Origin: Salegentibacter sp. 24
GTDB lineage: Bacteria > Bacteroidota > Bacteroidia > Flavobacteriales > Flavobacteriaceae
DNA: 33,222 bases
Direction: 5' to 3'
Assembly (NCBI RefSeq): GCF_004362395.1
Contig: NZ_SNWE01000032.1
Location: forward strand, 1 to 33,222
This document shows positions 4,201-24,849 of the stretch, piece after piece (the first letter of the stretch is position 1; every line of letters begins with the position of its first letter). The position numbers were made by a program, and so were the translations under genes. A model generated the notes under the pieces. That model saw only the letters and a program-made list of their open reading frames with translations, searched no databases and had not been told where the DNA came from.

Positions 4201-4413
4201 AGCCTGAGAAGGTAGATTTTTATTTAGTCCTTTTATCGCTTTAAGAAAACGATGCTTTAACAGCACCTCAGCAGCAGAATCTCTTCCAATTTTACCGTTC
4301 TCCCCAAATTTCTCCCCCTGGTACACATTGGCGATTTGCCAATTTAATTGATTTTTAAAAATATCAATACTGGTTTTCTCAATTAATGCGTCTTCGGAGT
4401 AGTTGTTACTCAT
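1207..4413 (-). CDS. hsdR: Type I restriction enzyme, restriction/translocase subunit
   Basis: A 1068-residue HsdR, the ATP-driven DNA translocase and endonuclease of a type I restriction-modification complex. The N-terminal nuclease domain shows the PD-(D/E)xK pattern (Pro151-Asp152, then E166-x-K168). The superfamily 2 helicase motor follows: Walker A QGSGKSY (312-318), the DEAH box at 407-410, and motif III FTGTP near 433. The helical C-terminal region that docks on the methyltransferase follows. Length and domain order are normal and no catalytic residue is missing. It is the last gene of the hsdM-hsdS-small ORF-hsdR series, starting 6 bp after the 78-residue gene, so it is almost certainly cotranscribed with it. 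Confidence 0.97.
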   Translation of the reverse strand: MSNNYSEDALIEKTSIDIFKNQLNWQIANVYQGEKFGENGKIGRDSAAEVLLKHRFLKAIKGLNKNLPSQAYQKAWEIFSAKDATKALPEINREKHDFLKDGIPVTYKDEKGEIVRNKKIKVFNFEQPEENDFLVVQQLWIEGKSKRRKRPDVVCFVNGIPLVFIELKAHHRKIRVAYETNLSDYKETIPAIFYYNAFIILSNGIETKVGSITSRFEHFNDWKRISEEEEGVISLDKALKGTCEKSRLIDLFENFILFDDSLGKIAKLVARNHQFIGVNKAIDHFKELNAKTKAGKITPEESRKLGVFWHTQGSGKSYSMVFLTQKILRTVGSYTFVLITDRAELDKQIYGTFNGVGAVTDKKSKASSGENLKALLQTDKKYIFSLIHKFNFEEELTQRENIIVISDEAHRTQGGSLALNMRKALPKASFMGFTGTPLFKNDELTKRIFGDYVSTYNFKRSIEDGATVPLYYENRGEKLKLENPKINEEIRNKIEEFELEGDQQEKLEKLFAREYPILTANKRLRAIAKDVVQHFNTRGYKGKALFVALDKITAVKMYDFISEEWQNYITTEEKRIRLIHDEQEQIIAYRNRNWTKETELSVIVSHEQNEIEKFRAWGYDIEPHRLKMNTRDLEKEFKDENHPFRLAIVCAMWITGFDVKSLSTLYLDKPLKSHTLMQTIARANRVHEGKNNGLIVDYIETYKALLKALAVYGDGGGENGGKGPEGGIDQPVKPLEELVGELEETLLATELFLKNECEFNLEKVLEADDNLYRIKFLEEGYNAVCRSDESRNKFGVLAREVFKKYKALMPDNAIYEYKDRRDAINGLYSLIDEKVEASDISYIVKEVQDVVNESIETYNTELKKIEGYGETVDLSSLDFKRIEEEFLKIKGNKNIAVQSLKDRVNKKMEKLLNNNPLRIDYYERYQKIIEDYNLGKEYKSIKEIFDQLIRLFRDLSEEEKRAGKEDLTEDELIVFDMLNKGKKITDKEKATVKSAAQKLLERLKAHEFTVDSWAEKVQTSAAVRKAINDYLYEKLPYPTYEDGDIAVKTELLYDYFKGRYGVGNSYDS

Positions 4414-4419
4414 GTTAAT

Positions 4420-4656
4420 CTACTTAATTTCTACCCTATCTATTAATTCTACTGATTCAACATTGAAAAGATGAATCCTTTCTATATTCTCCTCTGCTCC
4501 CACAGTTAATATTACCGCAGTATGAAGCGCTTCTCCTTCGGTTATATAAGCGTGACCTTGATGCAGAAATGTTTTTCTAGTACTGCCATCCTTAAATCTT
4601 ATTTCTACAACGTCTAAGGAGGCTAATTTCAAATTATTAAATTCTGTTATGTTCAT
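4420..4656 (-). CDS. Small conserved-looking protein inside the hsd operon
   Basis: A 78-residue protein wedged between hsdS (3 bp gap) and hsdR (6 bp gap), so cotranscription is nearly certain. The sequence is rich in alternating hydrophobic and polar residues (LDVVEIRFKDGSTRKTF, HTAVILTV, IHLFNVESVELI), suggesting a small beta-barrel or beta-sheet domain. There is no signal peptide, membrane segment, HTH or metal motif. I do not recognise the family. Its position suggests a role in assembly or control of the restriction subunit, for example an HsdR-binding or anti-restriction safety factor, but this is inference from context only. Confidence 0.75.
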   Translation of the reverse strand: MNITEFNNLKLASLDVVEIRFKDGSTRKTFLHQGHAYITEGEALHTAVILTVGAEENIERIHLFNVESVELIDRVEIK

Positions 4657-4659
4657 ATT

Positions 4660-5838
4660 TTATACTTCTAAAGTTCTATTCATTAAACGGGGCAGTAAAA
4701 GATCGCGAGCTTTTTTAAGCTTATCAATTTGATTATTTAAATTCTGAATTAGAAAACTTTGTTTGTTCACAATATGTTCAAAGTCCTTTATTATCTTTTC
4801 GTCAGGAACAACTATCTCCATATTTAAGATATAGCTCTTATTAGCGTGAGGAATTGCAGCACCAGTATTTTTTGAGATTATATCATTTTCATTTAATTTG
4901 AAATATTGATAACAAAATTGCTTCCCCATTCTTTCATCAGTTATTCTCAAAACCGCCAAAGTTGAACCAATCGCCCCACCTATACTCTTTAGGACAATTC
5001 CGCTACGTGAACCATCCATAACCATTAGAGTCTCCTCCTCTTCAGTAATTCTTAATTTAAAATTTTCCGCATATCGATTTGCTCTTCTTTCCAAGACATC
5101 AATTAAAAGATAAGGTACACTTCCGGGAATCGGCTTATCTAATTCTACTTTAGGTTTCTTCCCTTTAATTATCTTTATACAATCATCTAAAATTACCGAC
5201 TCCCACCCTTCCGGCAGACCAGTTTCTTTTTTTATTGGCGTGCTTTCACTTCCGGGAAACCTGAAATTTACGAACCATTCCTTATATAAATGCTGTGCTG
5301 CTTCTTCCAGGAGTTTAATGCGTTTAAGGTTGGTTTCAATAAGAATATCATAGTTCGAAAGAATATTAGCTATTTTAACCTGTGTCTGATATTCAGGTAT
5401 TAGGCTCTTTTTTGACAAAAGTTTTGCCATACTCAAATTTTCACGTGCTGCTCCTACTGAAATTCTTTTTAGTTCATCTTTTATTGTGTCAAGAAGGTAT
5501 TTCACAAAAAGATTTGTAGATACATCCTTATAAGCATTAAATCCAATTACACTGTCTGGAAAACAAGCCTCCACATTAAGAATTGCGGATTCTGCTGTAT
5601 TTGCTCCAACTATGGAGATACAAAGAGTTCCCGGACTCCAAAGAAGACTTTGAGCTAATCCAAATTCATTATATGTTTTTTGAAAATCATTTATAAACAA
5701 ATTGGAAGCTTGAATTTCTGCAGTTTGGATTAAAGGATATTTTCCTCCCAATAGTTTCTTATCATTTCTGGGACGATGACGTGATTTACCACGTTTAAGT
5801 TCACCTAATTGATCCAAGGTTTTTAATTCCCAATTCAT
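4660..5838 (-). CDS. hsdS: Type I restriction enzyme, specificity subunit
   Basis: A 392-residue HsdS, which recognises the bipartite DNA target for both methylation and restriction. Two target-recognition domains are visible: TRD1 from the N-terminus (WELKTLDQLGELKRGKSRHR) and TRD2 from about residue 205 (GLPEGWESVILDDCIKIIKG). Each is followed by a conserved helical spacer; the first contains ILIETNLKRIKLLEEAAQ, the second ends in KARDLLLPRLMNR. The YKEWFVNFRFPG segment between halves is typical of this family. Its ATG overlaps the hsdM stop by 4 bp (5835-5838), indicating translational coupling. The recognition sequence cannot be read from the protein. Confidence 0.95.
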   Translation of the reverse strand: MNWELKTLDQLGELKRGKSRHRPRNDKKLLGGKYPLIQTAEIQASNLFINDFQKTYNEFGLAQSLLWSPGTLCISIVGANTAESAILNVEACFPDSVIGFNAYKDVSTNLFVKYLLDTIKDELKRISVGAARENLSMAKLLSKKSLIPEYQTQVKIANILSNYDILIETNLKRIKLLEEAAQHLYKEWFVNFRFPGSESTPIKKETGLPEGWESVILDDCIKIIKGKKPKVELDKPIPGSVPYLLIDVLERRANRYAENFKLRITEEEETLMVMDGSRSGIVLKSIGGAIGSTLAVLRITDERMGKQFCYQYFKLNENDIISKNTGAAIPHANKSYILNMEIVVPDEKIIKDFEHIVNKQSFLIQNLNNQIDKLKKARDLLLPRLMNRTLEV

Positions 5839-7724
5839 AAGCCTAATTCATTAAAGTTTGCCTGGATCTGGTTTGCAAGCTCAGCAGCTTCTTCATTAAG
5901 TCCTTGTAATTCCAATTTAATTTCTCCCATCCGTGTTTCAAAGTCAAAATCTTCATCTTCCTCCACAGGGGCTACTCCAACATATCTCCCGGCAGTAAGG
6001 CTATAGTCATTATCAGCAATGGCTTCTTTATCTACTACTTTACAAAGTCCGGACACATCAACATATTTCCCTTCCGGAAATCGCTGTGTAAGCCAGGCAG
6101 TTTCTTTAGTAAAATAAAGACTTTGGTTTACTGTTTCTGTAAACTTTGAAACCAGGCGTTCGACTTCAGCAATTTTCTTTTGGAGTCTTTCTTTTTTGTC
6201 TTTATGCTTTTTATAGTCTTCAGATCTCAGCAGCTCTTTACTGTCATTAACAAAGGCTTTAACAGCATTATTTATCAGTCTTTTTTCCTCTTTTAGGTTT
6301 TCAGCAGAAAACGTTTTAAACTCATGTTCTATACTTTCAGCTTTCTCAATTTGCTTAGCCAGGTTTTGAGCTTCAGTAAGTGAATTTTCAGCCGTAGTTT
6401 TATATTCGGTTAAAACCTTTTCAAAATAGGAATTATCACCCCTATACATCGCTACCAGAGCGTGAATATTTTTTAGTTGTTCCTCAGTAAAATCGTGAAG
6501 ATTTGTAGATACTTTTCTATAAACATCCCTAAGATCCAGCATCAGGGTTTGGTCTGCCCGAATTTCATCTTTGGCTTTGGCTTTATCAAAAAACCACAAA
6601 GAACAAGGCAGCGATCTGGTATAGAAAAACTTTGTACCTATAGAAACCATTACATCAACCGCACCAGTTTCCACCAGCTTCTGGCGAATCAGTTTTTCAG
6701 AATGCCCGGCATCTGAGGCAGAAGAAGCCATCACAAACCCGGCTCTTCCACTGTCATTTAAATAACTATAGAAATACTGAATCCAAAGGTAATTGGCGTT
6801 ATCATTATTTGGTAGACCAAAAGGAAGTCGCCTGTCATTCTTTACGCTATCTTTTCCTTTATCTACCCCATCAACATTAAATGGAGGGTTCGCCATCACA
6901 AAATCACACTGCCCAACGAGTTCATGGTGATCTTCATAAAAAGAATTTCCCTGAAGAATATTGGCATCCAAACCGTGAACCGCCATATTCATTTTAGCCA
7001 GTTTCGTGTTGGTATCGGCTTTTTCCTGTCCGTAGAAAGTAACTTTCTTAGAGGCATCAGTAAGTAACTCCTCTTCAATAAAGTGTGCTGACTGTACAAA
7101 CATACCGGCACTCCCACAAGCAGGATCGAAGACGGTGCCGTGATTAGGTTCAATAATATTTACAATAGCATTTACCAGACTTGGCGGGGTAAAAAATTCA
7201 CCACCTTCCTGCGCTCCTGTCATTGCAAATTTGTTGAGGAAGTATTCATATATCCTTCCAAATACATCTCCGGTAACATTATTCAACTCCTCATCATTAA
7301 AAATGCGAATAAGCCGGAATAAAAGATCTTTTTCGAAAAGCGTATATTCTTTGGGCAAGACTCCGTTTAGCACTTCATATTCTTCCTCAATGCTACGCAT
7401 TGCATTATTTAGAAATTCACCGGGATCCTCAACTGTTTTGAGATTAGCTATAGTTTTCCACTGTGCATTTTCAGGAAGGAAAATAGCTTTGGCATTTAGA
7501 AAGTCGTTTTTACTGACAGCTCTTTTCCCCCGCTGTGGATGTGAAGGCAAAGATTTTTCAATCTCCTCCTTAGCCACCACAAAACGGTTATAGGCGTGTC
7601 TCAAAAAGATTATTCCCAGAACCGGAAAGCTATATTCAGATGCAGTAAGTTTAGAATTTGCCCGAAGGTCATCGGCAGCTTTCCAGAGTTTATTTTCCAG
7701 ATTTTTGAGTTGGTATCTTGTCAT
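5835..7724 (-). CDS. hsdM: Type I restriction enzyme, N6-adenine methyltransferase subunit
   Basis: A 629-residue HsdM that methylates adenine in the HsdS-selected site using S-adenosylmethionine. The N-terminal helical HsdM domain (about 1-150) is followed by the catalytic domain with GEFFTP (175-180), SAM motif I FDPACGSAGM (199-208) and catalytic motif NPPF (279-282). The C-terminal third is an extended, charged coiled coil (about 430-540), making it longer than the roughly 500-residue classic form; this is common in Bacteroidota. It is the first gene of the operon and is coupled to hsdS by a 4-bp overlap. Nothing suggests inactivation. Confidence 0.96.
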   Translation of the reverse strand: MTRYQLKNLENKLWKAADDLRANSKLTASEYSFPVLGIIFLRHAYNRFVVAKEEIEKSLPSHPQRGKRAVSKNDFLNAKAIFLPENAQWKTIANLKTVEDPGEFLNNAMRSIEEEYEVLNGVLPKEYTLFEKDLLFRLIRIFNDEELNNVTGDVFGRIYEYFLNKFAMTGAQEGGEFFTPPSLVNAIVNIIEPNHGTVFDPACGSAGMFVQSAHFIEEELLTDASKKVTFYGQEKADTNTKLAKMNMAVHGLDANILQGNSFYEDHHELVGQCDFVMANPPFNVDGVDKGKDSVKNDRRLPFGLPNNDNANYLWIQYFYSYLNDSGRAGFVMASSASDAGHSEKLIRQKLVETGAVDVMVSIGTKFFYTRSLPCSLWFFDKAKAKDEIRADQTLMLDLRDVYRKVSTNLHDFTEEQLKNIHALVAMYRGDNSYFEKVLTEYKTTAENSLTEAQNLAKQIEKAESIEHEFKTFSAENLKEEKRLINNAVKAFVNDSKELLRSEDYKKHKDKKERLQKKIAEVERLVSKFTETVNQSLYFTKETAWLTQRFPEGKYVDVSGLCKVVDKEAIADNDYSLTAGRYVGVAPVEEDEDFDFETRMGEIKLELQGLNEEAAELANQIQANFNELGL

Positions 7725-7990
7725 GTATGGGGCGTGATAATTCCAGAGTTTGTTTATCTGTGATTTACAGCATTTTAATTCGCCTAACGGGTGTAGGGAG
7801 TGTTAAGCGTGGTACAATTTAGGAAAAATTAAGAATTTACAGAATATATATCTATTACAAAATTACACTAGGTTGATTTTTTAAGATAAATCTTACTCAC
7901 TTTATAATTAATATGGTATAAAACAGCAAACAGATATTGGGCTTATTAACTCCTTAAAACTTCATCTGTATTTTATCAATTACACCATTA
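7725..7990. promoter_or_regulatory. Intergenic region upstream of hsdM with candidate promoter and inverted repeat
   Basis: This 266-bp gap separates the methylase at 7991 from hsdM. On the minus strand 7865-7858 reads TAATTTTG, matching the Bacteroidota -7 consensus TAnnTTTG, about 130 bp upstream of hsdM; no convincing -33 element accompanies it. Between it and hsdM is an imperfect inverted repeat, CGCCTAAC (7781-7788) and GTTAAGCG (7802-7809), 7 of 8 positions complementary, which could be an operator or an RNA hairpin in the leader. Both are sequence observations without functional support. Confidence 0.35.
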
Positions 7991-9883
7991 TCATAATTCA
8001 ATATCAATAATATTATATTTTTTTAATAAGAATTTATTAATAGTTGATTTTCTGCACAAATTCATAAAATACTGTCTCTCCCTATCAGTAAATTCAGGAA
8101 TACTGAAATTCTTCACATAGTTCTTAGCTAATGCAAAATATCCACCAGAATAAGGTTTACTGGCATACTTAATATAGTACCAGAATACATCGGTTTCAAG
8201 TAGTTTTTTAATAAATAATAACTCGGCTTCATTTTCGGAAACCAAAGCGTATCCATTGTAAAACAATAAATCTTCATTATTGGTATATACAAAATAGGGC
8301 GCATTAGAAATATAAGGAAAAAGTAATTTGAAACCACTAATATTTAAAGCCTGGCTACGACCATACGCAAACCAAGTTTCATATTCTCTCTTTCCCTTGT
8401 CTCTTTTTGATAATTCATCCCTGTAGTCATTTAAGTAATTATAAGCATGCGGATAATTCTCTCGAAAATGGTTTTCTGGGATAATTTTAACCCTACGATT
8501 TTGAGAGTTTTGAAATAAATCCCTATTATTTTCATCAATTATAGTGTAAGGAAAAATAATTTTTTCATTGTAAGTTTCCAGATCAATTTCATTTTTTAAA
8601 ATATTAGGCTTAATAGCATCTTTACAAATCAATCTTTCTACTCTATAACTTATAGAATCTTTTTCAAAATAATAGTACTCATCATCTTCATTTATGGGAG
8701 AAAATAAATAAATTTTATTCCTTAGGGTTGCAAAGCCATTTCTAATATTCATTAGATCCCCTAATTTGTCTCCGGAATTCTCTAGCCTGTCCAAATTCAA
8801 TTTTGTTTTAGCATCGTCCAGTTGCCATCCGTGAAGATCATTTAAATCAGTATATTGAAAATTGAGGAAATCGCGTTCTGATAAATCCTTAATATTTTCT
8901 GGTGTGGAACTAGTATAATTTAAATAACCTCTTCGTTTAGATATTAGACAAATACAAGTATAGGTTAGTCTAGATTTAAATACTTGTTCGCTCCCGAAAT
9001 CAACGAAAGTAAAGTGAAAATTTTTCTCTGAAAAATAACTGCGTAGAGCTCGACCATTTAAACTCCTGTAGAAGTTATTTACAGTAATATATCCTAAAGT
9101 ACCATTTCGTCGGAGCCATTTAAGACCAATTTGAAAAAAAGGAATATACAAGTCTAGTTTGCCAGTTGAAGCTACAGACCAATTTTTCATTAGTGTTTTG
9201 GTCTCTTCCTCTAAATTAGAAGAGCCTACGTACGGTGGATTACTGAATACGAAATGAAATCCCCCGTTTGCTTCGATTAAAGGTGAATTTTCAAACCAAT
9301 CAAAATTAAGAGAATCTCCAATGAATAAATTGAAATCTATTCTTTCCTTATCTTCACCCTGAGAAAGAGCTAATAAGGTTAATAAAATTTTAGTCCGTTC
9401 AATACTATAGGCAGTAATATCTATTCCATAAAGGTTATCTTCAATAATCTGAATAAAATTTTTACCGGTTTCTTGATTGATTTTTAGTGCATATTCAAAC
9501 AAAAAGCCACCACATCCACAAGCAATATCGCACGCGGTTAAATCTTCTAAGCCATCGTAATCTTCAATCGCCTGCGATACAATATAATCCCTAATATATT
9601 TTGGAGTATAAACCGCGCCATTAACTATTTTGTCACTGGGAGAAATAACAAACTCAAAAAATTCTATTAACTGTTCTAAAGTGAAAGGTCTATCATTAAA
9701 AAGTTCTGAGAACTTATTTAATTCATCAATTTCTTCATCCTGATTTATTATATAACTCTTAATAATCTCATTGGAAATATTTTGAAAATTATTGACTTTT
9801 AAATATGAAGAAACTAGAAGCCTATTTATTTCTCTAATATTACTAGAGTATTGACGTAAATGTTTTAATATGTGTTGATTCAT
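7991..9883 (-). CDS. TaqI/Eco57I-like N6-adenine DNA methyltransferase
   Basis: A 630-residue class I N6-adenine DNA methyltransferase. The catalytic domain shows GAVYTPKYI (89-97), SAM motif I DIACGCGGF (119-127), the acidic loop YGIDI (152-156) and the catalytic tetrad NPPY (215-218). The C-terminal half resembles the TaqI-type target-recognition region (IRNGFATLRNKIYLF, KIIFPYTI, ending near a GGYFALAKNYVKN segment). The first 85 residues are helical with no visible PD-(D/E)xK motif, so it looks like a methylase rather than a fused type IIG enzyme. It is the last gene of a minus-strand cassette, 1 bp after the 236-residue gene. With a receiver protein and GHKL ATPases upstream, its activity may be signal-controlled; that is inference. 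Confidence 0.9.
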   Translation of the reverse strand: MNQHILKHLRQYSSNIREINRLLVSSYLKVNNFQNISNEIIKSYIINQDEEIDELNKFSELFNDRPFTLEQLIEFFEFVISPSDKIVNGAVYTPKYIRDYIVSQAIEDYDGLEDLTACDIACGCGGFLFEYALKINQETGKNFIQIIEDNLYGIDITAYSIERTKILLTLLALSQGEDKERIDFNLFIGDSLNFDWFENSPLIEANGGFHFVFSNPPYVGSSNLEEETKTLMKNWSVASTGKLDLYIPFFQIGLKWLRRNGTLGYITVNNFYRSLNGRALRSYFSEKNFHFTFVDFGSEQVFKSRLTYTCICLISKRRGYLNYTSSTPENIKDLSERDFLNFQYTDLNDLHGWQLDDAKTKLNLDRLENSGDKLGDLMNIRNGFATLRNKIYLFSPINEDDEYYYFEKDSISYRVERLICKDAIKPNILKNEIDLETYNEKIIFPYTIIDENNRDLFQNSQNRRVKIIPENHFRENYPHAYNYLNDYRDELSKRDKGKREYETWFAYGRSQALNISGFKLLFPYISNAPYFVYTNNEDLLFYNGYALVSENEAELLFIKKLLETDVFWYYIKYASKPYSGGYFALAKNYVKNFSIPEFTDRERQYFMNLCRKSTINKFLLKKYNIIDIEL

Positions 9884-14710: not shown

Positions 14711-14959
14711 TTATCTAAACAATTCATCGTCAAAGAATTCTTTTAAAGTAATTCCAAGCGCTTTACATATCCTATTTAGGGAATAAATGGTTATCCCGCG
14801 CTTTGATTTAATATTTTCCCAGGGTTGAAAATTTTGCCGATCAACATCTATATTTTTTGAAATACCACTTTTAGAATCCCCTTGTTTTTCTCTTAGTCCA
14901 AGAAGTCTTAGTTTAATTTTTTGTTTCAGTATTTCGTCTTCTTCCCTCAATTTTGCCAT
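14711..14959 (-). CDS. XRE-family transcriptional regulator
   Basis: An 82-residue protein consisting of one Cro/C1-type helix-turn-helix. The helices run from about residue 10 (LKQKIKLRLLGLREKQG), through the recognition region SGISKNIDVDRQNFQPWE, to the C-terminal helix SLNRICKALGITLKEFFDD. Its size and compactness are like the controller (C) proteins of restriction systems and small phage repressors. The gene faces away from the sigma/dCas12f operon and lies upstream of the minus-strand GHKL cassette. A perfect palindrome at 14991-15010, just upstream of its start, is the obvious operator candidate, so autoregulation and control of the rightward leader RNA are plausible. Confidence 0.85.
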   Translation of the reverse strand: MAKLREEDEILKQKIKLRLLGLREKQGDSKSGISKNIDVDRQNFQPWENIKSKRGITIYSLNRICKALGITLKEFFDDELFR

Positions 14960-15042: not shown

Positions 15043-15050
15043 TATATTTG
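15043..15050 (+). promoter_or_regulatory. Candidate -7 promoter box for leader RNA / sigma operon
   Basis: TATATTTG matches the Bacteroidota -7 consensus TAnnTTTG. A clear -33 TTG is not present, so the box is only moderately convincing. Transcription from here would start within the first hairpin of the structured leader, a few bases downstream. Confidence 0.4.
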
Positions 15051-15230
15051 CGAAACTTCTTTAAGTAAAAATATTAGAAGCATTTCGCTTTGAATCTCAA
15101 TCTGAAAACTGGTAATTTTTTGCAACGAGATGATAAGCAAGGATGCTCACGACCCGGGCGTGGGCTCTCTTATCGTTGCACGGTATACCAGTACCTCAGA
15201 TTGATAAGTTGAGTCTCCACGCCTTTTTTG
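15050..15230 (+). ncRNA. Highly structured leader / small RNA upstream of the sigma factor gene
   Basis: Two strong structures are visible. Hairpin 1: GCGAAA (15050-15055) with TTTCGC (15083-15088), and CTTCT (15056-15060) with AGAAG (15076-15080). Hairpin 2 is a long stacked stem: CAATCTGA (15098-15105)/TCAGATTG (15196-15203); ACTGGTA (15108-15114)/TACCAGT (15186-15192); TGCAAC (15121-15126)/GTTGCA (15175-15180); GATAAG (15132-15137)/CTTATC (15169-15174); GCTCACG (15145-15151)/CGTGGGC (15159-15165). A T-run follows at 15224-15229. TTGATAAG (15201-15208) can instead pair with CTTATCAA (15250-15257), so two alternative folds exist, as in an attenuator. It may be an independent RNA, a regulated leader of the sigma/dCas12f operon, or DNA-level structure. 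I do not recognise an RNA family. Confidence 0.6.
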
Positions 15231-15360
15231 TTTGTAGGAAACAGGCCTTCTTATCAACTGTTTTCAAAGCTATCTTCTCTTTATATCTTATAAGAATTCG
15301 CTAAAGCTAAATTCAGTTTAATTCTGGTGGCATTTACCTCCGGCTTAATAACGACTGCTT

Positions 15361-16143
15361 ATGTTACAGCGTATTTTCGAATTATTACAACAAGGACATC
15401 CCGATGCTTTGAAATTGATCTATGCCAGGTATAACCGAAGCCTCTTTTGGCTGGGCAAGAGAACAATTAAGGATGAATTTGTCATAGAAAACATCCTTCA
15501 GGATGCTTTCCTCATATTATGGGAAAAAAGAGACCGGATAGAAACTCCCGAGCATATTTACTTTTTCCTTCGTTATGTAATGAAAAGAGATTGTACCTAT
15601 TATTATTGCCGACCTAAAAATAAGTTTCACAAGATCACCGACAGGTTAGAATTATACGAAAATTATCAGGAATATATGCACGGTTATGACCCGGAGGAAG
15701 AAGATAAGCATCTACTGGAGCAGGAAGCGGATCAAAAAGCTTTCGACCGGATTCAGAGTGTTCTTCCCTTGCTTAGCGGTAAAAGAAAGCTCCTGATTGA
15801 ACTCTGTTTAAAATACGGTTTTCAGTATAAAGCCATCGCCGAAGCGATGGGAACCAGCATCACCAAAACCAGTACCGAGGTAAAAAGCGCCATTGAAGAT
15901 ATTAAGAATATCATTAATAATGGGAGGTCCCTTGAAGCTAAACCACAACCGATGCTAGCGGTAAAGATCCAGGGTACTATGACCCGGAAACAGGAAAAGG
16001 TGTTACAGCTGCGTACGGAAAAGCAATATTCCTTTGCTGCCATCGCTAAAGAACTGAACCTTGCCCAAAAGGAAGTGCACAAGGAATTTATGGCTGCCTA
16101 TAAACTATTGCAACTCAAACACGAACAACAACAATCAGCTTAG
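15361..16143 (+). CDS. ECF-like sigma factor paired with a nuclease-dead Cas12f
   Basis: A 260-residue sigma-70 family protein of ECF type. Region 2 spans about residues 15-78 (ALKLIYARYNRSLFWLGKR; VIENILQDAFLILWEKRD), and region 4 spans about 135-182 (LLSGKRKLLIELCLKYGFQY, KAIAEAMGTSITKTSTEV). Unusually, a second sigma-4-like HTH follows at about 208-252 (MTRKQEKVLQLRTEKQYSF, AAIAKELNLAQKEVHKEF), making it longer than the usual 170-200 residues. No anti-sigma gene is adjacent. Its stop is 2 bp before the start of the Cas12f-like gene, so the two are coexpressed. Bacteroidota sigma factors linked to dCas12f have been reported to be recruited by the guide RNA complex to start transcription; this pairing suggests the same job here. 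Confidence 0.88.
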   Translation: MLQRIFELLQQGHPDALKLIYARYNRSLFWLGKRTIKDEFVIENILQDAFLILWEKRDRIETPEHIYFFLRYVMKRDCTYYYCRPKNKFHKITDRLELYENYQEYMHGYDPEEEDKHLLEQEADQKAFDRIQSVLPLLSGKRKLLIELCLKYGFQYKAIAEAMGTSITKTSTEVKSAIEDIKNIINNGRSLEAKPQPMLAVKIQGTMTRKQEKVLQLRTEKQYSFAAIAKELNLAQKEVHKEFMAAYKLLQLKHEQQQSA

Positions 16144-16145
16144 TC

Positions 16146-17246
16146 ATGGGAAAAGATACGATAAAACTCACCCGGAAGATCCAGCTGCAGGTGGATGCCC
16201 CTACCAAGGAAGAAAAAACGGAGGTTTATGATACGCTGTACCGCTGGCAGAACAGAAGCTTTAAAGCAGCCAATCTCATTGTTTCACATCTGTACGTGCA
16301 GGAAATGATCAAAGAATTCCTTTATTTATCGGAAGGAGTAAGATATAAGCTGGCGGATGATAAAAAAGCTGAAGACGGCATCTTGGATCGGCACCGGATC
16401 AGTACTACCTACCGGGTGGTATCCGATCGGTTTAAAGGGGAAATTCCCACCAACATTTTAAACAACCTGAACAATAATATCATCAATAACTTTCGTAACA
16501 ACTTGCCGGAATATATTAGAGGAGAACGCTCTCTGGCAAATTTCAAAAGGAATATCGCTTTTCCTTTTGGACCCGTAGGTATTCATGGTTTATCTTATGA
16601 AGAAGAAAAAAAAGCATTTTGTTTTCGTTTGTTTTCCATTCCCCTTAAAACATATTTAGGGAAGGATTATACTGATAAACGAAGCTTGCTGGAACAGGTA
16701 ATAGCCGGCAAAATCAAGCTATGTACTTCTAAAATTCAACTGAAAAGACAAAAAATTTATTTGTTAGCCACCTTTGAATTTGAGAAAGAAAAGCATAGCC
16801 TCAAACCGGAAGTAATTGCAGAAGCTTCTTTATCTCTTGAATATCCTATTACAGTGAAATCCGGAAAAGCAACACTTAGTATTGGCAATAGGGAGGAATT
16901 CCTATATAGAAGGCTAGCCATACAGGCTTCTCAAAAAAGGGCACAAAGCGGGGCCACCTATTGCAGACCCGGAAAAGGCCGTAAACGCAAAACAAAAGCA
17001 GTGGATAAATTCTACGAACTGGAAAAAAACTATGTAAGTAACCGCTTGCATGTATACAGCCGAAAGCTCATTGATTTTTGTATTAAACACCAAGCGGGGA
17101 CCCTCATTTTGTTAAACCAGGAAGATAAAATAGGAATCGCCAAAGAAGAAGACGGATTTCTTTTAAGGAATTGGAATTATTATGAACTGACGACCAAAAT
17201 AAAATACAAGGCCAAGAAAGCCGGTATTGAACTTATAGTAGGTTAA
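16146..17246 (+). CDS. Nuclease-dead, C-terminally truncated Cas12f/TnpB-family RNA-guided protein (dCas12f-like)
   Basis: A 366-residue protein aligned by eye to the Cas12f/TnpB fold. The N-terminal recognition/wedge part (1-220) is followed by a RuvC-like part. The position of RuvC motif I (normally GIDxGIxYP) reads EASLSLEYP (226-234), so the Asp is gone. The basic bridge region RRLAIQASQKRAQSG and GKGRKRK (255-284) is kept. Motif II (normally IEDL or similar) reads TLILLNQEDKIGI (319-331), without the Glu in register. The segment NWNYYELTTKIKYKAKKAG (342-360) is the conserved region before the zinc finger, but the protein ends at 366, so the zinc finger and motif III Asp are absent. It is therefore an RNA-guided binder rather than a cutter, coupled to the sigma gene upstream and followed by guide-RNA units. 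Confidence 0.88.
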   Translation: MGKDTIKLTRKIQLQVDAPTKEEKTEVYDTLYRWQNRSFKAANLIVSHLYVQEMIKEFLYLSEGVRYKLADDKKAEDGILDRHRISTTYRVVSDRFKGEIPTNILNNLNNNIINNFRNNLPEYIRGERSLANFKRNIAFPFGPVGIHGLSYEEEKKAFCFRLFSIPLKTYLGKDYTDKRSLLEQVIAGKIKLCTSKIQLKRQKIYLLATFEFEKEKHSLKPEVIAEASLSLEYPITVKSGKATLSIGNREEFLYRRLAIQASQKRAQSGATYCRPGKGRKRKTKAVDKFYELEKNYVSNRLHVYSRKLIDFCIKHQAGTLILLNQEDKIGIAKEEDGFLLRNWNYYELTTKIKYKAKKAGIELIVG

Positions 17247-17256
17247 ATCGAACTAG

Positions 17257-17345
17257 GAGGGTGCTTGTACACCCATAAGGTGAGGTATTTAATGACACTC
17301 ACTAAATGCTCGCAGCATATACAACCCTCCCCTAAAGATTAAAAG
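17257..17345 (+). ncRNA. Guide RNA 1 (scaffold 17257-17325, candidate guide 17326-17345)
   Basis: The scaffold contains stem GGGTG/CACCC, stem GTGAG/CTCAC and hairpin ATGC-TCGCA-GCAT, then ATACAAC. Ending in CAAC is shared with Cas12f repeats, where the guide starts immediately after. The candidate guide is CCTCCCCTAAAGATTAAAAG. The true 5' end may lie upstream, inside the coding sequence. Confidence 0.75.
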
Positions 17346-17434
17346 GAACTGGAATTATTATGAACTGATGACCAAAATCAAAGACAAGGCCGGGAAAACC
17401 GGTATTGAACTTATAGTAGATTAAATTCAATGAT

Positions 17435-17523
17435 GAGGGTGCTTGTACACCCGTAAGGTGAGGTATTTAATGACACTCACTAAATGCACGTAGCATATAC
17501 AACCTTCCCCAAAAGATTAAAAT
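17435..17523 (+). ncRNA. Guide RNA 2 (scaffold 17435-17503, candidate guide 17504-17523)
   Basis: Same scaffold as unit 1, with only a few substitutions, all in loops (for example ATGC-ACGTA-GCAT), so all stems are kept. The candidate guide is CTTCCCCAAAAGATTAAAAT, identical to guide 1 at 17 of 20 positions. The two may address related targets or still be diverging after duplication. Confidence 0.73.
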
Positions 17524-17612
17524 GAACTGGGATTATTATGAACTGATGACCAAAATAAAATATAAGACCGAGAAAGCCGGTATTGAACTAATAGTGGATT
17601 AAATTCAAAGAT

Positions 17613-17701
17613 GAGGGTGCTTGTAAACCCGAAAGGTGAGGTCCCTAATTACACTCACTAAATGCACGCAGCATATACAACTTAAGTCAATTAGCCTTCT
17701 A
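17613..17701 (+). ncRNA. Guide RNA 3 (scaffold 17613-17681, candidate guide 17682-17701)
   Basis: The scaffold keeps GTGAG/CTCAC and ATGC-ACGCA-GCAT. The first stem is shortened (TTGTAAACCC replaces TTGTACACCC), and the loop of the second stem differs (GTCCCTAATTACA). The candidate guide TTAAGTCAATTAGCCTTCTA is unrelated to guides 1 and 2. It is the outermost unit and is followed by a hairpin at 17711-17731. Confidence 0.72.
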
Positions 17702-17710
17702 GGTGTGAAG

Positions 17711-17731
17711 GTTGAGGAGTGTTAGCTCAAC
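17711..17731 (+). terminator. Candidate terminator after the guide array
   Basis: GTTGAG (17711-17716) pairs perfectly with CTCAAC (17726-17731) over a 9-base loop, and TTTGTCT follows. The stem is short and the T-run is interrupted, so this is a weak intrinsic terminator, but it is well placed to define the 3' end of guide RNA 3. The rest of the gap up to 17982 is AT-rich, and I see no gene in it. Confidence 0.4.
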
Positions 17732-17982
17732 TTTGTCTGCTTAAAAGCAAAAAGCTTGATTTCACTACTTCCCAAGGGTGTAATTTAACTAAATGGATTA
17801 TTACCTTGCTTTAATATATCCAGTACGGTGCTATTTACCATAAAATAATTCTTAGCAACTAGCTCCGTTTGGATAATTCAGATTCTTTAGAAAAATTTTT
17901 ATTTATAGCATAACTGTATTTTATCCTAAACAAAGGAAAATAGAAATCTTTTAGTAAATTAGAAACACCAAATAATAAAGCC

Positions 17983-18603
17983 ATGTGCTACCGTACCAAA
18001 TTAAATTCCAAGCTTAGTGAAATTGAACGCAGCCTGGACGCAAGGTTTATTGAACCGGATTCCTATAAACCCCATTTAGAAATAAACGCTTTTACGTTCT
18101 CAAAAACTCCAGTAATTTCAGATGAAAACCAGGGCGAGATCCAGATGTTCAATTGGGGGCTTATTCCATTCTGGGCCAAGGATGATACCATCAAAAAAAT
18201 GACCTTGAATGCTAAAATTGAAACCATTGCAGAAAAACCTGCCTTTAGGAATTCAGTAAAAAAGCGTTGTTTAATTATTGCAGACGGCTATTACGAATGG
18301 CAGTGGAAAGATGCAAAAGGGAAAGAAAAACAGAAGTACTTAATTACCCCTACTGACCAGGAAATTTTTGCTTTTGCAGGCATCTACTCCACCTGGATTA
18401 ACCCTGAAACCAACAAATCCGTTAACTCTTATTCTATTGTAACAACAGAAGCCAATGAACTCATGGCTGAAATCCATAACAATAAAAAAAGAATGCCGGT
18501 AGTACTGAAAAAACAGGATCACCAGTCCTGGTTAACTGGCACCGACCACCAGAATTTTGCCTTTCCTTACGAAGTACCTTTAATAGCAAGTGCGGTAGCA
18601 TAA
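17983..18603 (+). CDS. yedK: SOS response-associated peptidase (SRAP), HMCES/YedK family
   Basis: A 206-residue SRAP protein, which protects cells by forming a covalent DNA-protein crosslink with abasic sites in single-stranded DNA. The start is fixed by MCYRTK: Cys2 becomes the catalytic N-terminal residue after Met removal (the usual family start is MCGR). Other family landmarks are LNAKIETI (the Asn and Glu of the NAR-ET motif), KRCLIIADGYYEW, and the active-site His segment IHNNKKRMPVVL. Length is normal. It is a lone gene about 250 bp downstream of the guide-RNA array, with its own spacing and no sign of coupling to that system. Confidence 0.92.
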   Translation: MCYRTKLNSKLSEIERSLDARFIEPDSYKPHLEINAFTFSKTPVISDENQGEIQMFNWGLIPFWAKDDTIKKMTLNAKIETIAEKPAFRNSVKKRCLIIADGYYEWQWKDAKGKEKQKYLITPTDQEIFAFAGIYSTWINPETNKSVNSYSIVTTEANELMAEIHNNKKRMPVVLKKQDHQSWLTGTDHQNFAFPYEVPLIASAVA

Positions 18604-21279: not shown

Positions 21280-22152
21280 TTAATATCCCATACCTATACC
21301 GGTATCTCTTATAATCTTAACTGCTCCTTTTAAAAGTTCCTTGGTTATTTTGGTAGACAGGTTACCACTTAGCTGCACGGTCTTGTTTAAGATCTGAAGC
21401 TCCTTTGGTGCCTGCGTTAGCTTTTTAAAACCCTGGTTATGAGAGATAACAGGGATTAACCGGTTACCACTCATCGACCGGTGGACTTCACTGGCCTTAA
21501 GGTTCACTCCTTTGTATTCCATCCGGAAGCCCTGCAGTTGGTTCGCTTTATTAATGCTGGGGATCACCTCCACCTTCTGGCCCTTCATTTTGCTTATATA
21601 CTCATCCAGGGATTTCGGCCTTGACTGAAGCACCCGGTCATGTATATTTTTGATCTCCTGTCGCAGGCCCTTTAACTCCTGAAGCTTTTCCTGCTGCACT
21701 TCCCGAACTCTTTTAAAGCCTAATTCCCTGGCAACATTATCCGCCGCTATCTGGCTTCGTTTCCCGATAAACCGATCATTGTAAGTCTTACCATCAAAGC
21801 CGATCCTGTTGGTATAGATATGGATGTGCGTATGCGCCTTATCCCGGTGAACAAAGCCAATAGATTGGTGGTCCTGCAGGTTCATCTCCTTTAAAAACTT
21901 TTTAGCGACCTCTTCCAGATCCATTTTACTGAGATCCTTCCCGTCCTCGATGTTCGGGCTGACGATAAAGCTTAAGGTATTATTGGTACAACGCTCATTT
22001 TGCGACTGGATAATCCTAAACTCTTCGGCTATCTCCGAGGGAGTATCCCCGGCCACATGTTCTCGGAGTACAATTTCAGCTTCCTTTTCCTGGTTCCAGC
22101 CATAGGATATAGAAGCCCTGGTCCTGGAAATAGCATGTCCTTTTCCTATCAT
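21280..22152 (-). CDS. Relaxase / mobilisation nuclease (MobB-like)
   Basis: A 290-residue relaxase that would nick the element at oriT and lead the transferred strand into a recipient through a helper conjugation system. The N-terminal part carries a Tyr candidate (RTRASISYGWN, Tyr17), and the HUH-type metal motif is clear: HTHIHI with His107, His109 and His111, preceded by FVHRDKA. The C-terminal third is a charged helical region. It is shorter than many relaxases but usual for Bacteroidota mobilisable elements. Its ATG overlaps the mobC stop by 4 bp (22149-22152), so the pair is translationally coupled. Confidence 0.93.
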   Translation of the reverse strand: MIGKGHAISRTRASISYGWNQEKEAEIVLREHVAGDTPSEIAEEFRIIQSQNERCTNNTLSFIVSPNIEDGKDLSKMDLEEVAKKFLKEMNLQDHQSIGFVHRDKAHTHIHIYTNRIGFDGKTYNDRFIGKRSQIAADNVARELGFKRVREVQQEKLQELKGLRQEIKNIHDRVLQSRPKSLDEYISKMKGQKVEVIPSINKANQLQGFRMEYKGVNLKASEVHRSMSGNRLIPVISHNQGFKKLTQAPKELQILNKTVQLSGNLSTKITKELLKGAVKIIRDTGIGMGY

Positions 22153-22445
22153 TTTTTAAAGTTTTTTAAATGTTCCCTGATTTCCCTGGCAAGGTCTTGC
22201 ACCTCCCTGGCCAGCCTCGGATCCCGCTTTCGAAACATATTTCCGATACGGCTAAAGTTGTTCTTGTACTGTACCAGCATCTGGTAGGTCTGCAATTGTT
22301 CAGCAGTGAGCCGTTCCACAATATTCTTATCAAAGGCAGTAGCACGGATATACTCTGAAAGGGAAATCCCTGCCCTGGCCGCTCTTCTCTGGAGTAGCTT
22401 TTTCTCATAGATCGAACAACGCACCTGGATGTATTCCCTTTTCAT
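22149..22445 (-). CDS. mobC: MobC-like relaxosome accessory protein
   Basis: A 98-residue basic protein of the MobC type, which binds near oriT and helps the relaxase open the DNA. The N-terminal strand EYIQVRCSIYEKKLL with the following helices RRAARAGISLSEYIRATAF forms a ribbon-helix-helix-like DNA-binding unit. The C-terminal helix contains the family-typical NNFSRIGNMFRKRDPRLA. It overlaps the relaxase start by 4 bp, and a candidate oriT lies directly upstream. No abnormality was seen. Confidence 0.88.
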   Translation of the reverse strand: MKREYIQVRCSIYEKKLLQRRAARAGISLSEYIRATAFDKNIVERLTAEQLQTYQMLVQYKNNFSRIGNMFRKRDPRLAREVQDLAREIREHLKNFKK

Positions 22446-22479
22446 TTTTTACCTTTTAAAATCTTTGCAACCACCGGGC

Positions 22480-22520
22480 GCAAAGCAAGATTGTCATGAC
22501 AATGACACATCTTGCTTTGC
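22480..22520. other. Candidate oriT: nested inverted repeats upstream of mobC
   Basis: GCAAAGCAAGAT (22480-22491) and ATCTTGCTTTGC (22509-22520) are a perfect 12-bp inverted repeat. Inside it is a second perfect palindrome, TTGTCATGACAA (22491-22502). The structure sits in the 129-bp gap between the primase-like gene and mobC, the usual place for the transfer origin. A terminator for the upstream gene is the alternative, but no good T-run follows on either strand. Confidence 0.55.
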
Positions 22521-22574
22521 CTTTTCAACTGAAAATTCCGATAGGCATCTACTTTTTGCCAACGCATCAATTTT

Positions 22575-23444
22575 CTACTTCTCTGCTCTTCTAAAACTTC
22601 CTTCAGCCTTCAGTTTTTCGTTGAGATCTGCATACCCCTTATAGGAATCACTGCAATCCGTGATATGCTCATAAAGGTTAACAAGTAAAGCAGTCGCTTT
22701 TTTACCGGCAGCATCATTATCCAGGTAGAGGAACACCCGCTCATATTTCAGAAGTAAGCCTTTAATACGGTCCACAAAAGCCAGGGAATTCAAAACGATG
22801 GCATCCGAAGAATTCACTAATGTTTCCTCTATAGTAGCCAGGGATAGAAAATCAAACATCCCCTCCGTTACAATTAACTGTCTCGAATCATTTTGAATAA
22901 AGGAATAGGTCTTGGGACTACTGGAGTTTTTAAAGTATTTATTGCGAAGTTCCCAGCCGCCCCTGTTATTGCGAAGTCCGATAGCATAGAACTGCCGGTC
23001 TTTATACTGGTACCAGACCTGAACGCAATAGACCCTGGCAACTTCAATAGGAATCTTGCGGGACTCCAGGTACCCTATCAATGCCCGGTGTTTTAAAGCT
23101 TCCACCCTTAGCACCTCGATCCCTTGTTTTACTACCGGCTTCTTTACAGGTGGATGAAAAGAAGTAATTGTACCGGCTTCCAAAAATTCCAAAGCCTCCC
23201 TGTTGGAATAAGACTTTAGCAGCATAACAAGGTCAATCACATTCCCTCCTTTTCCCATTCCGAAATCATACCACAGGTTCTTTCTTAAAGAAACGCTGAA
23301 AGAGGCATGTGTTTCTGACCGAAGGGGACTCAGAAACCAGGCTTCTTTTTCCGTTGTTTTGCTGGGAAAGTGCCCTAATTTTGCAAGCGTTTTTACGATG
23401 CAAATATTACGGGCTTTTTCCCAGCTTAATTCATTTAAGTTCAT
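22575..23444 (-). CDS. Primase-like Toprim protein with degenerate CHC2 zinc-finger domain
   Basis: A 289-residue protein built like the N-terminal part of DnaG primases. Residues about 35-75 correspond to the CHC2 zinc-binding fold (AWFLSPLRSETHASFSV, then WYDFGMGKGGNVIDLV), but the Cys and His ligands of the usual CPFH and CxxC positions are replaced, so zinc is probably not bound. The Toprim part includes LIVTEGMFDFLSL (the metal-binding Glu) and VFLYLDNDAAGKKAT (the DxD-like acidic pair). It likely primes replication of the mobile element or assists its transfer. It stands between the candidate oriT and the repeat-rich origin candidate. Confidence 0.87.
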   Translation of the reverse strand: MNLNELSWEKARNICIVKTLAKLGHFPSKTTEKEAWFLSPLRSETHASFSVSLRKNLWYDFGMGKGGNVIDLVMLLKSYSNREALEFLEAGTITSFHPPVKKPVVKQGIEVLRVEALKHRALIGYLESRKIPIEVARVYCVQVWYQYKDRQFYAIGLRNNRGGWELRNKYFKNSSSPKTYSFIQNDSRQLIVTEGMFDFLSLATIEETLVNSSDAIVLNSLAFVDRIKGLLLKYERVFLYLDNDAAGKKATALLVNLYEHITDCSDSYKGYADLNEKLKAEGSFRRAEK

Positions 23445-23463
23445 TTTTTCATTTTTAAGTTAC

Positions 23464-23642
23464 CATCTTACCCAACCCCCTTTCTAAAAGGCCTAAGAAA
23501 GATTTAGATTCGATTTTCCGATCTTACCATGTTACCCGGGCAAACTTTAAGGGTAAGTTGGGTAAGATGCCTTTAAATGATCTTACCAGCCCGAAGGCCC
23601 TAAAATACCTGAGCTTAAAGAAGCTTTAGGTAGGCTGGTAAG
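23464..23642. repeat. Iteron-like and inverted repeats, candidate replication origin of the element
   Basis: The 214-bp gap between the VapE and primase genes is packed with TTACC/GGTAA motifs. CATCTTACCCAAC (23464-23476) is mirrored exactly by GTTGGGTAAGATG (23557-23569). ATCTTACC recurs at 23521 and 23580, and CTTACCAGCC (23582-23591) is mirrored by GGCTGGTAAG (23633-23642). Lying between helicase-like and primase-like genes, it is a good candidate for an origin or initiator-binding region. A regulatory role in the operon leader is the alternative. Confidence 0.5.
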
Positions 23643-23658
23643 TAGATTTCAGTATTAA

Positions 23659-24849
23659 TTAATTAATTTCCCAGGGGCTATTCTTAAAAAGAGGTTTTGC
23701 CAGGTAGCCGTAAACCCCTTTTACAGGATGCTTGATCCTCTCAAAACCTCTGGACTTCAGTGCCCTCCCCATATTTATTACATTAAGCCGTGGATTTATA
23801 CAGCTTAGTTGAGTAATGAAATCAGAAGCCGTCATAAAAAAATTCTGATCTTCACTGGTTTCATAAAACTTGGCAAGTAATTCTTCCTCCAGGGTAGGTT
23901 CCCGATAGCGTTTATTGCGTTCCTCGTTTCTAAGAATATCCTGGTAAGTCAGCTCAGGATCAAAATTTGGATCCACGTAAGCCAGGTAATAAGCCTGGGC
24001 CCATACCTTATCTATATCCACCTCCTTACTATACCTAAAATCGATTGTCCCCAGCAGTTCAAAACATAACCACCTGACCGAGCCGGTTTCATCGCTTAAG
24101 AAACTTGCCCTATTGGTAGATCCTATAAAACTGCAGGTCCTTCGAAGGTTTGAATTTTTGCGGTCATAAGGCAAGCGTTCATTGATGATCGTTTTGGAAA
24201 AATAAGCCTTAAGTGCATTTAATTCTTTCCTTGCCAGTACCGATAACTCATCAAGATTGATAAGGAAATTTCTGGTAAGCTGAATTCTGGCATCTTTATC
24301 TGTAGTCATATCCTCCGCGAAATACCTGGACAAAGCCGGTGGACATAAAAACCGGCACCAGGTAGACTTTCCGGAATTCTGATCTGAATGAACCAGCACC
24401 AGGCATTGCTTATTAAAGTAATTAGCCTCAAGGGCACCCTTCACTGTTCGTACCAGCCATTTACGAAAATGGTACAGGAATTCTTCAGAATCCCGGGTGG
24501 GAAGATAAGAAGCCAGTTTTCTGATATGGTCCCCTCCCACCCATTTCGGTAGCCGATCAAAATACTCCGTGATAGGATTAAACCTTTCAATGAGGTTAGA
24601 CCGTAAATAAATATCCAGTTTTCCCGGGGTCACCTCAATATTGGATTTGGCCAGTTCTATTAGCAGAGAATTCACTTCAAAATCCTCCCAGGTTCGCTTC
24701 CCTTTAATAGCAATCTGAAACTCCTGGGCTATTTCATTAAACCGGATATCATATTTCGCAGAAACATAATCATCCACATAATCGTAGATTGTTTGCTTCT
24801 TCTGGTCAGAAACCTGGTAGAGTTTAAGTTCTTCCTTTTTCATAACCAA
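23659..24849 (-). CDS. VapE-family (virulence-associated E) P-loop ATPase
   Basis: A 396-residue protein of the VapE family, superfamily 3-like helicase/ATPases found in satellites and mobile elements next to primases. The Walker A region is HSDQNSGKSTW (154-164) and the following acidic strand NFLINLDELS supplies Walker B. The segment IGSTNRASFLSDETGSVRWL is the typical sensor region. It probably unwinds the element origin together with the Toprim protein downstream. A Met three codons in (MKKEE) is an equally good start. It follows the HTH gene by 5 bp, so one operon is likely. Confidence 0.9.
   Translation of the reverse strand: MVMKKEELKLYQVSDQKKQTIYDYVDDYVSAKYDIRFNEIAQEFQIAIKGKRTWEDFEVNSLLIELAKSNIEVTPGKLDIYLRSNLIERFNPITEYFDRLPKWVGGDHIRKLASYLPTRDSEEFLYHFRKWLVRTVKGALEANYFNKQCLVLVHSDQNSGKSTWCRFLCPPALSRYFAEDMTTDKDARIQLTRNFLINLDELSVLARKELNALKAYFSKTIINERLPYDRKNSNLRRTCSFIGSTNRASFLSDETGSVRWLCFELLGTIDFRYSKEVDIDKVWAQAYYLAYVDPNFDPELTYQDILRNEERNKRYREPTLEEELLAKFYETSEDQNFFMTASDFITQLSCINPRLNVINMGRALKSRGFERIKHPVKGVYGYLAKPLFKNSPWEIN

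Follow-up and report, generated by a model that had tools for sequence, protein, structure and literature searches.

A contig of 33,222 nt from Salegentibacter sp. 24 (NZ_SNWE01000032.1, here called the window in its full length) harbours a sigma factor gene and a gene for a nuclease-dead Cas12f (dCas12f), followed by three guide RNA (gRNA) units. The locus is probably an operon for RNA-guided transcription by dCas12f and sigma, equipped with three gRNAs, in which guided transcription starts would bypass hairpins in the leaders of the target genes. The sequences compared here show the gene order, the deactivation of Cas12f, covariation in the gRNA scaffolds, the presence of five paralogous systems in the genome and guides that match the leaders of SusC-type and sigma-dcas12f genes. 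Judged by sequence, the core system is of a known kind (dCas12f-sigmaE) and the window locus a further member. We think that the most informative part of the locus is a structured leader RNA upstream of the sigma gene, which lies outside the coordinates covered by a preliminary description of this DNA.

The sigma factor gene (260 aa, 15361-16143) and dcas12f (366 aa, 16146-17246; these coordinates and those of the leader and the gRNA units refer to the plus strand) are both intact open reading frames (ORFs) separated by 2 nt, as had been described. The Cas12f-like protein matches PDB chain 9n9c_A ('Nuclease-deactivated Cas12f') over its full length (E=3e-173); Pfam matches are weak, and the NCBIfam guided TnpB model stays under its cut-off (E=2e-16). 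The sigma factor resembles those of the extracytoplasmic function (ECF) group (TIGR02937 over its cut-off; TIGR02985 with E=4e-21 under that model's cut-off) and matches 9n9q chain C ('RpoE') across residues 1-257 (E=6e-88). Together with the covarying scaffolds, these matches uphold the reading of the locus as a dCas12f-sigma system that carries an array of guide RNAs of its own. The preliminary description had singled out the position of sigma as first gene of the operon and the presence of three guides rather than one. Both are common: a sigma homologue lies 5' of dcas12f in 56 of 57 dCas12f loci, with a gap of 1-2 nt in 53, and 14 of the 57 carry two to six gRNAs, the other 43 having one. 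These traits were dropped as distinguishing marks. The sigma-first loci include that of Allomuricauda taeanensis (L012), the sigma factor of which is identical to 9n9q_C in its first 40 residues.

Loss of the aspartate of RuvC motif I is confirmed by alignment with Cas12f 9nzo, in which a serine takes its place (EASLSL vs GVDLGI). The claimed loss of the motif II glutamate holds against 9nzo, whereas in the alignment with 9nzq 'QED' falls opposite 'MED', leaving this position ambiguous. The absence of the zinc finger and motif III agrees with the early end of the chain (query residue 363 aligns to residue 414 of the 506 of Cas12f); both elements presumably belong to the C-terminal part beyond that end. 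Structural comparison with Cas12f and TnpB, set beforehand as a test, was performed with an AlphaFold2 model (pLDDT 78.9, pTM 0.54) based on an alignment (A2) of 34 sequences drawn from the 57 loci plus the window. Foldseek ranked 9n9m and 9n9c first (70 % and 66 % identity; TM-scores 0.63-0.66), followed by Cas12f and TnpB structures. In this ranking of matches, which is not a tree, dCas12f and Cas12f chains are best and TnpB chains lower. A search for viral relatives found none.

Behind dcas12f, three tandem units of 178 nt start at 17165, 17343 and 17521, the second and third being 90 % and 79 % identical to the first. Each unit is composed of the last ~80 nt of dcas12f, a gRNA scaffold ending in CATATACAAC and a guide. 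The scaffolds (17247-17325, 17425-17503 and 17603-17681), delimited by the repeat units, a scaffold hidden Markov model (HMM) and covariation, precede the guides u1 (CCTCCCCTAAAGATTAAA, 17326-17343), u2 (CTTCCCCAAAAGATTAAA, 17504-17521) and u3 (TTAAGTCAATTAGCCTTC, 17682-17699), and the duplicated dcas12f 3' ends occupy 17343-17424 between the first and second gRNA and 17521-17602 between the second and third. Across 55 of 89 reference sequences (alignment A3), the three scaffold stems display 28 double-change cells compared to 5.0 ± 1.8 after shuffling, and 98.5 % of the cells are paired (95.9 % shuffled). The structured repeats noticed earlier behind the Cas12f gene are thus real. A CRISPR repeat-spacer array is absent from 16900-18100, which holds only the 178-nt units and one 18-nt family partly within them. 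The locus accordingly shares the Cas12f fold with type V-F CRISPR-Cas12f and differs from it by the missing motif I aspartate and motif III and by gRNA units with dcas12f remnants in place of a repeat-spacer array.

Since dcas12f remnants were detected by blastn between the units of eight of the 14 multi-guide loci (L002, L004, L005, L006, L024, L026, L042 and L054), the arrays of those eight seem to grow by duplication of the dcas12f 3' end together with the gRNA; blastn revealed no such remnants in the other six. The close relative L002 (Salegentibacter agarivorans, 98 %) possesses an array of five guides. Locus L006 of Salegentibacter maritimus corresponds to genome G005, and G305, of the same genus as the window, has equal leader coordinates.

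The genome of the window (61 contigs) contains five full dCas12f genes, located on C32 (the window), C38, C21, C30 and C4, the latter four being 89 %, 80 %, 74 % and 74 % identical to the first (loci L080, L082, L083 and L084). Extra gRNA units are found on C29 and C14. Reading the extra units as dispersed orphan cassettes was abandoned, as those of C38, C21, C30 and C4 follow full dcas12f paralogues. The units at C29:39333-39721 and C38:96-234 (L081, L082) lie at two contig ends on matching strands and may constitute one long array split by the assembly. The diverged unit at C14:40587-40716 (L085; guide ATTGCGGGTACAGAAAACG) has no adjoining dcas12f and looks orphan. The Cas12f1-like TNB domain has a single match in this genome, at C9:29462-29659 (L001), a possible canonical TnpB.

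The nearest characterized system is represented by PDB entries 9n9c, 9n9m, 9n9o and 9n9q, which we take to be the dCas12f-sigmaE RNA-guided transcription system of Flagellimonas (Allomuricauda) taeanensis; two solved structures of relatives were released on 2025-12-24. Both systems have the sigma-dcas12f order, close spacing, a dead RuvC site and full-length protein similarity in common, as well as a downstream gRNA of the same scaffold family (L012, same HMM). The window differs by three tandem gRNAs derived from 3'-end duplication as opposed to one in L012, by the five paralogues in its genome, by different guides and by the leader matches of the commonest guide described below.

The leader RNA (182 nt, 15050-15231) comprises a 5' hairpin, nested aptamer-like helices P1-P5 and an overlapping terminator. 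At its 5' side lies TAnnTTTG (TATATTTG, 15043-15050), which we take to be the -7 element of the Bacteroidetes housekeeping promoter. Of 118 distinct leader copies, 106 have this motif within the 110 nt upstream, as against a mean of 13.25 and a maximum of 22 after shuffling, and its placement is fixed, with 101 motif positions located 65-56 nt before the AAACTGGTA core. The 5' strand of the terminator is GCGTGGGCTCTCTTAT (15158-15173), which also forms the 3' strand of P5-P4; its 3' strand GATAAGTTGAGTCTCCACGCC and the T-run extend over 15203-15229. CACGCC with at most one mismatch, followed by TTT, is present in the 60 nt past the GGTATACCAGTACC motif in 88 of the 118 copies.

Covariation was assessed in alignment A1, which holds 56 of 59 candidates (L045 and L121:2798 were judged false, and L026 is a near-duplicate). 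The nested fold A (36 pairs) exhibits 192 double-change cells compared to 65 ± 5.5 in shuffled alignments and at most 79 in slid controls; by one of the five measures, the number of further pair types, it does not exceed the shuffles (56 vs 53.0, reached by 55 of 500). Fold B, the terminator (23 pairs), was chosen by RNAalifold unaided and has 28 double-change cells compared to 10.1 ± 3.7, with 96.0 % of the cells paired (94.6 % shuffled). The leader is therefore predicted to have two mutually exclusive covarying folds, one of which is a terminator. For the window copy, folding energies are -43.3 kcal/mol for the 138-nt element as A and -29.7 kcal/mol for the 75-nt 3' part as B, the terminator hairpin; a stretch of 151 nt has a folding z of -2.5 relative to 200 shuffles. 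R1 scores this copy at 155 bits, although it is one of the model's training rows. Rfam 15 contains no family matching the leader; only unrelated models were returned, with E of 0.71 and above and all under their gathering scores. Housekeeping-type promoter, structured RNA and overlapping terminator with T-run are features of riboswitch and attenuator leaders, from which this one differs by the lack of a matching Rfam family and by a terminator strand that equals a guide RNA sequence.

Among dCas12f-bearing genomes, R1 (E<=1e-3) yielded 116 matches in 45 of the 48 scanned, which are part of the genomes behind 61 loci, with a best E per genome of 1e-21 or lower. Among 299 sampled genomes of the family, taken together whether or not they hold dCas12f, matches (E<=1e-8) were obtained in 54; the comparison is biased towards dCas12f, as R1 was built from dCas12f-bearing genomes. 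Downstream of 113 distinct leaders with at least 900 nt of following sequence, SusC-like genes are found in 52 cases, sigma(-dcas12f) genes in 38, a share inflated by the deliberate retrieval of dCas12f loci, and other genes in 23; SusC was called with three reference proteins, and one sigma-dcas12f locus (L053) is counted as 'other'. By eye, the other genes include ECF-sigma-like, response-regulator-like and small families (L161, L349, L307, L311, L312, L313, L168-L170). At C31:14000-24000 (L092) the leader and susCD stand beside a small divergent ORF without intervening sigma or dcas12f gene. The SusC encoded there scores above the TIGR04056 cut-off, and the SusD-like gene behind it does not reach the cut-off of the models that it matched; this susC is also preceded by a hairpin at -80 that is matched by guide u1.

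The terminator strand GCGTGGGCTCTCTTAT is at the same time the commonest dCas12f guide, heading the guide in many relatives. GCGTG-type guide regions account for 55 of 95 and are distributed over 43 of 60 loci; the exact 16-mer is present in 15 of these 55, and 33 have it with at most two mismatches. A search for GGCGTGGGCTCTCTTAT (<=2 mismatches) in 31 genomes from 32 loci (L039 left out) gave 85 matches compared to seven for the reversed pattern, 28 of the genomes having a match. The 27 matches with an initial C are gRNA genes (..CAAC then GCGTGG) except for one leader copy (L125). The 58 with an initial G are mostly leaders, but in at least four cases (L034, L060, L138, L155) the match is a gRNA gene carrying an additional G, and some others (L151, L156) look like chance. 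A G directly precedes the strand in 117 of the 118 distinct leader copies; in the window it is located at 15157, the place of a 5'-G target-adjacent motif.

A second guide family, TTGTGGGATAYACGCTA of A. taeanensis and its kin, was scanned with up to three mismatches over sequences rich in susC leaders. Eleven of its 14 matches outside gRNA genes lie in susC leaders and three elsewhere. Ten of these 11 sites have a 5'-G and ten are placed 242-290 nt before the next ORF; three belong to genome G027, in which the guide known is one of the first (GCGTG) type. At the TTGTGGGATAYACGCTA site, the guide corresponds to the 5' arm of a different hairpin that follows a small ORF. A conserved small ORF separates leader and susC in L289, L276, L281, L111, L140 and L141; by eye, it ends with FDILFKKKPKNPV/I and is followed by a TTGTGGGATA hairpin, and the Echinicola guides resemble the 3' end of this small ORF. 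Guides of a third, CCTTCCCCTAAAGATT-like family occur in the window and in L002-L005; they are similar to the 5' arm of a hairpin located ~80 nt upstream of SusC genes. The degenerate pattern of this family (u1/u2) has 11 matches genome-wide compared to six when reversed, and three of the 11 are situated at susC leaders. The CCTTCCCCTAAAGATTA pattern occurred at 27 places in nine genomes, ten of them gRNA units and one a susC leader (L213); the rest, inspected in part, look like chance. A G in the place of the 5'-G motif named in the preliminary description is seen in the leaders of relatives and at the TTGTGGGATAYACGCTA sites; the window's own guides have partial matches.

Thirteen guide regions of the genome itself were compared with leaders in front of the window's sigma gene and four SusC genes, using 500 shuffles each; the shuffle fractions given here are uncorrected for the 13 guides and two measures. 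Matches accompanied by G at the window's sigma leader (15158-15173) were obtained for the C4 guide (15/16, shuffle fraction 0.002) and for guide C30c (12-nt seed, <0.002). Guide C30a matches the C3 susC leader (15/16, with G, <0.002) and C29a the C14 leader (14/16, with G, 0.012). A genome-wide match of the C29 guide search, C14:25203, is likewise a susC leader. Of the window's guides, u1 matches 13 of 16 positions with a 5'-G upstream of the C31 susC (0.020), and u3 has 10 nt (AATTAGCCTT) in common with a susC leader (0.038). The proposed check for guide matches beside a G therefore had partial success with u1 and none with u2, which lacks a significant target.

On the mechanism proposed here, the dCas12f-gRNA complex would open an R-loop in the leader beside the 5'-G, sigma would recruit RNA polymerase, and transcription would begin downstream of the R-loop. 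Since guides match the 5' strand of a hairpin in the leader (the terminator in case of the commonest guide), the guided transcript would be devoid of this strand and escape the attenuator, which in turn would restrain transcripts from the upstream housekeeping promoter. The terminator is calculated to weaken from -29.7 to -10.2 kcal/mol or weaker if the transcript starts at least 10 nt past the G, and to -2.8 kcal/mol from 30 nt on; since such a transcript cannot form the terminator, guided initiation is proposed to skip the attenuator. We infer at what distance transcription starts, which way the effect goes and what the aptamer-like part does. Within this genome, the leader of the window's own sigma-dcas12f operon would be the target of the C4 and C30 guides, in a cascade between paralogues, and the window's guides would be aimed, with imperfect matches, at leaders of SusC genes whose products start with MKNNYSRLKW. 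As a tentative generalization, natural guides possibly copy the 5' strand of hairpins in leaders, guided initiation removing the attenuator, with the principle applied to SusCD genes and, via paralogues, to sigma-dcas12f operons.

Several observations weigh against this proposal. The conserved G of the leader also pairs in the leader's folds, and its conservation is therefore no proof of a target motif. Co-adaptation of guide and leader within the same genome was not significant among 51 GCG-type guides of 34 genomes with a known leader (mean 11.04 vs 10.84 ± 0.18 permuted, 294 of 2000 permutations as high). The leader is kept in Echinicola (L024/L026/L042) and in L029, where the local guide mismatches, it was looked for and not found at the C38 and C4 systems, and 23 of the 113 leaders sit before other genes. 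Guides C21a (12 nt, <0.002) and C21b (11 nt, 0.006) match susC hairpins lacking a 5'-G, five of the 13 guides (u2, C29b, C29c, C30b, C14g) match no better than shuffled sequences, and the matches of the window's guides are imperfect. Genome-wide searches allowing three mismatches remained at or below the reversed control (C21, 1 vs 3; C29, 12 vs 22; u3, 18 vs 18), with the guides themselves included.

The retained leaders beside mismatching guides and the missing co-adaptation would fit guided transcription in which the RNA fold plays no part: the leader would be an independent riboswitch-like attenuator, and guides would sit there as on stable, conserved DNA upstream of susC. This reading is plausible, though less likely than not. 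It has to contend with the fact that all three guide families map to a hairpin 5' strand within a leader, and with the higher frequency of the leader in dCas12f-bearing genomes than in the family sample, subject to the bias of a model trained on the former. A different concern is that the window copy is decaying, its array being a drifting remnant while the other four systems do the work. The missing significant target of u2, the partial matches of u1 and u3 and the 90 % identity of units 1 and 2, guides included, point in that direction; intact ORFs, scaffolds that keep their pairs and an intact promoter and leader render such a decay rather unlikely.

Two further alternatives reassign the activity itself. 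Nuclease-dead TnpB relatives termed TldR act on flagellin genes and feature multi-locus cross-targeting (PMC13418256). They resemble the present system by a dead RNA-guided protein, a downstream gRNA and several loci cross-targeting one gene family, and differ in being TnpB-derived and directed at flagellin, whereas the window protein is Cas12f-derived and has a sigma partner. By analogy, dCas12f could repress by blocking transcription through the leader, which we consider improbable given the sigma homologue adjoining dcas12f with a gap of 1-2 nt in nearly all loci and the joint occurrence of dCas12f and RpoE chains in one PDB entry (9n9q). There is similarly little likelihood that the gRNA acts on RNA by mimicking the terminator strand, as an antiterminator or a decoy. 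The guide has leader sense, and pairing with the P4-P5 5' strand or the terminator 3' strand would be feasible; for RNA pairing, however, the G preceding nearly every target would be needless, albeit that this G pairs in the fold too, and the structure of a relative contains DNA (title of 9n9m).

In the vicinity of the operon, a small divergent gene on the minus strand (14711-14959, 82 aa) encodes a helix-turn-helix protein (PF13443, E=5e-5, over cut-off). Other small ORFs divergently adjoin the C21 system and the C31 leader; their matches to PF13443, with E=0.0067 and 0.02, fall short of the cut-off. Type I restriction-modification genes (HsdR-, HsdS- and HsdM-like) and an Eco57I-type methylase are encoded at 1207-9883, and a MobA-type relaxase and a VapE-like protein at 21280-24849, placing the system near an apparent mobilisable island. 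The protein encoded at 27054-28139 matches PF00144 (Beta-lactamase family), an ordinary annotation.

Neither the leader family nor the correspondence of guides to hairpin 5' strands was found in the literature and databases searched, which did not include the discovery paper of the system, and papers on leader RNAs of SusC genes were likewise sought, nothing judged related being among the ten listed of 190 records. As far as searched, the leader RNA family is new; it has no Rfam entry and is present in 54 of the 299 sampled genomes of the family. The duplication of a gene 3' end plus gRNA suggests a possible route for the growth of guide arrays. The findings tie a recently described class of RNA-guided transcription machines to their likely natural targets, the SusCD uptake genes and the systems' own operons, and offer a testable reason for guide placement, namely on the strand whose removal disarms the terminator. 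If true, this would amount to an RNA-guided bypass of an uncatalogued family of switch-like leaders.

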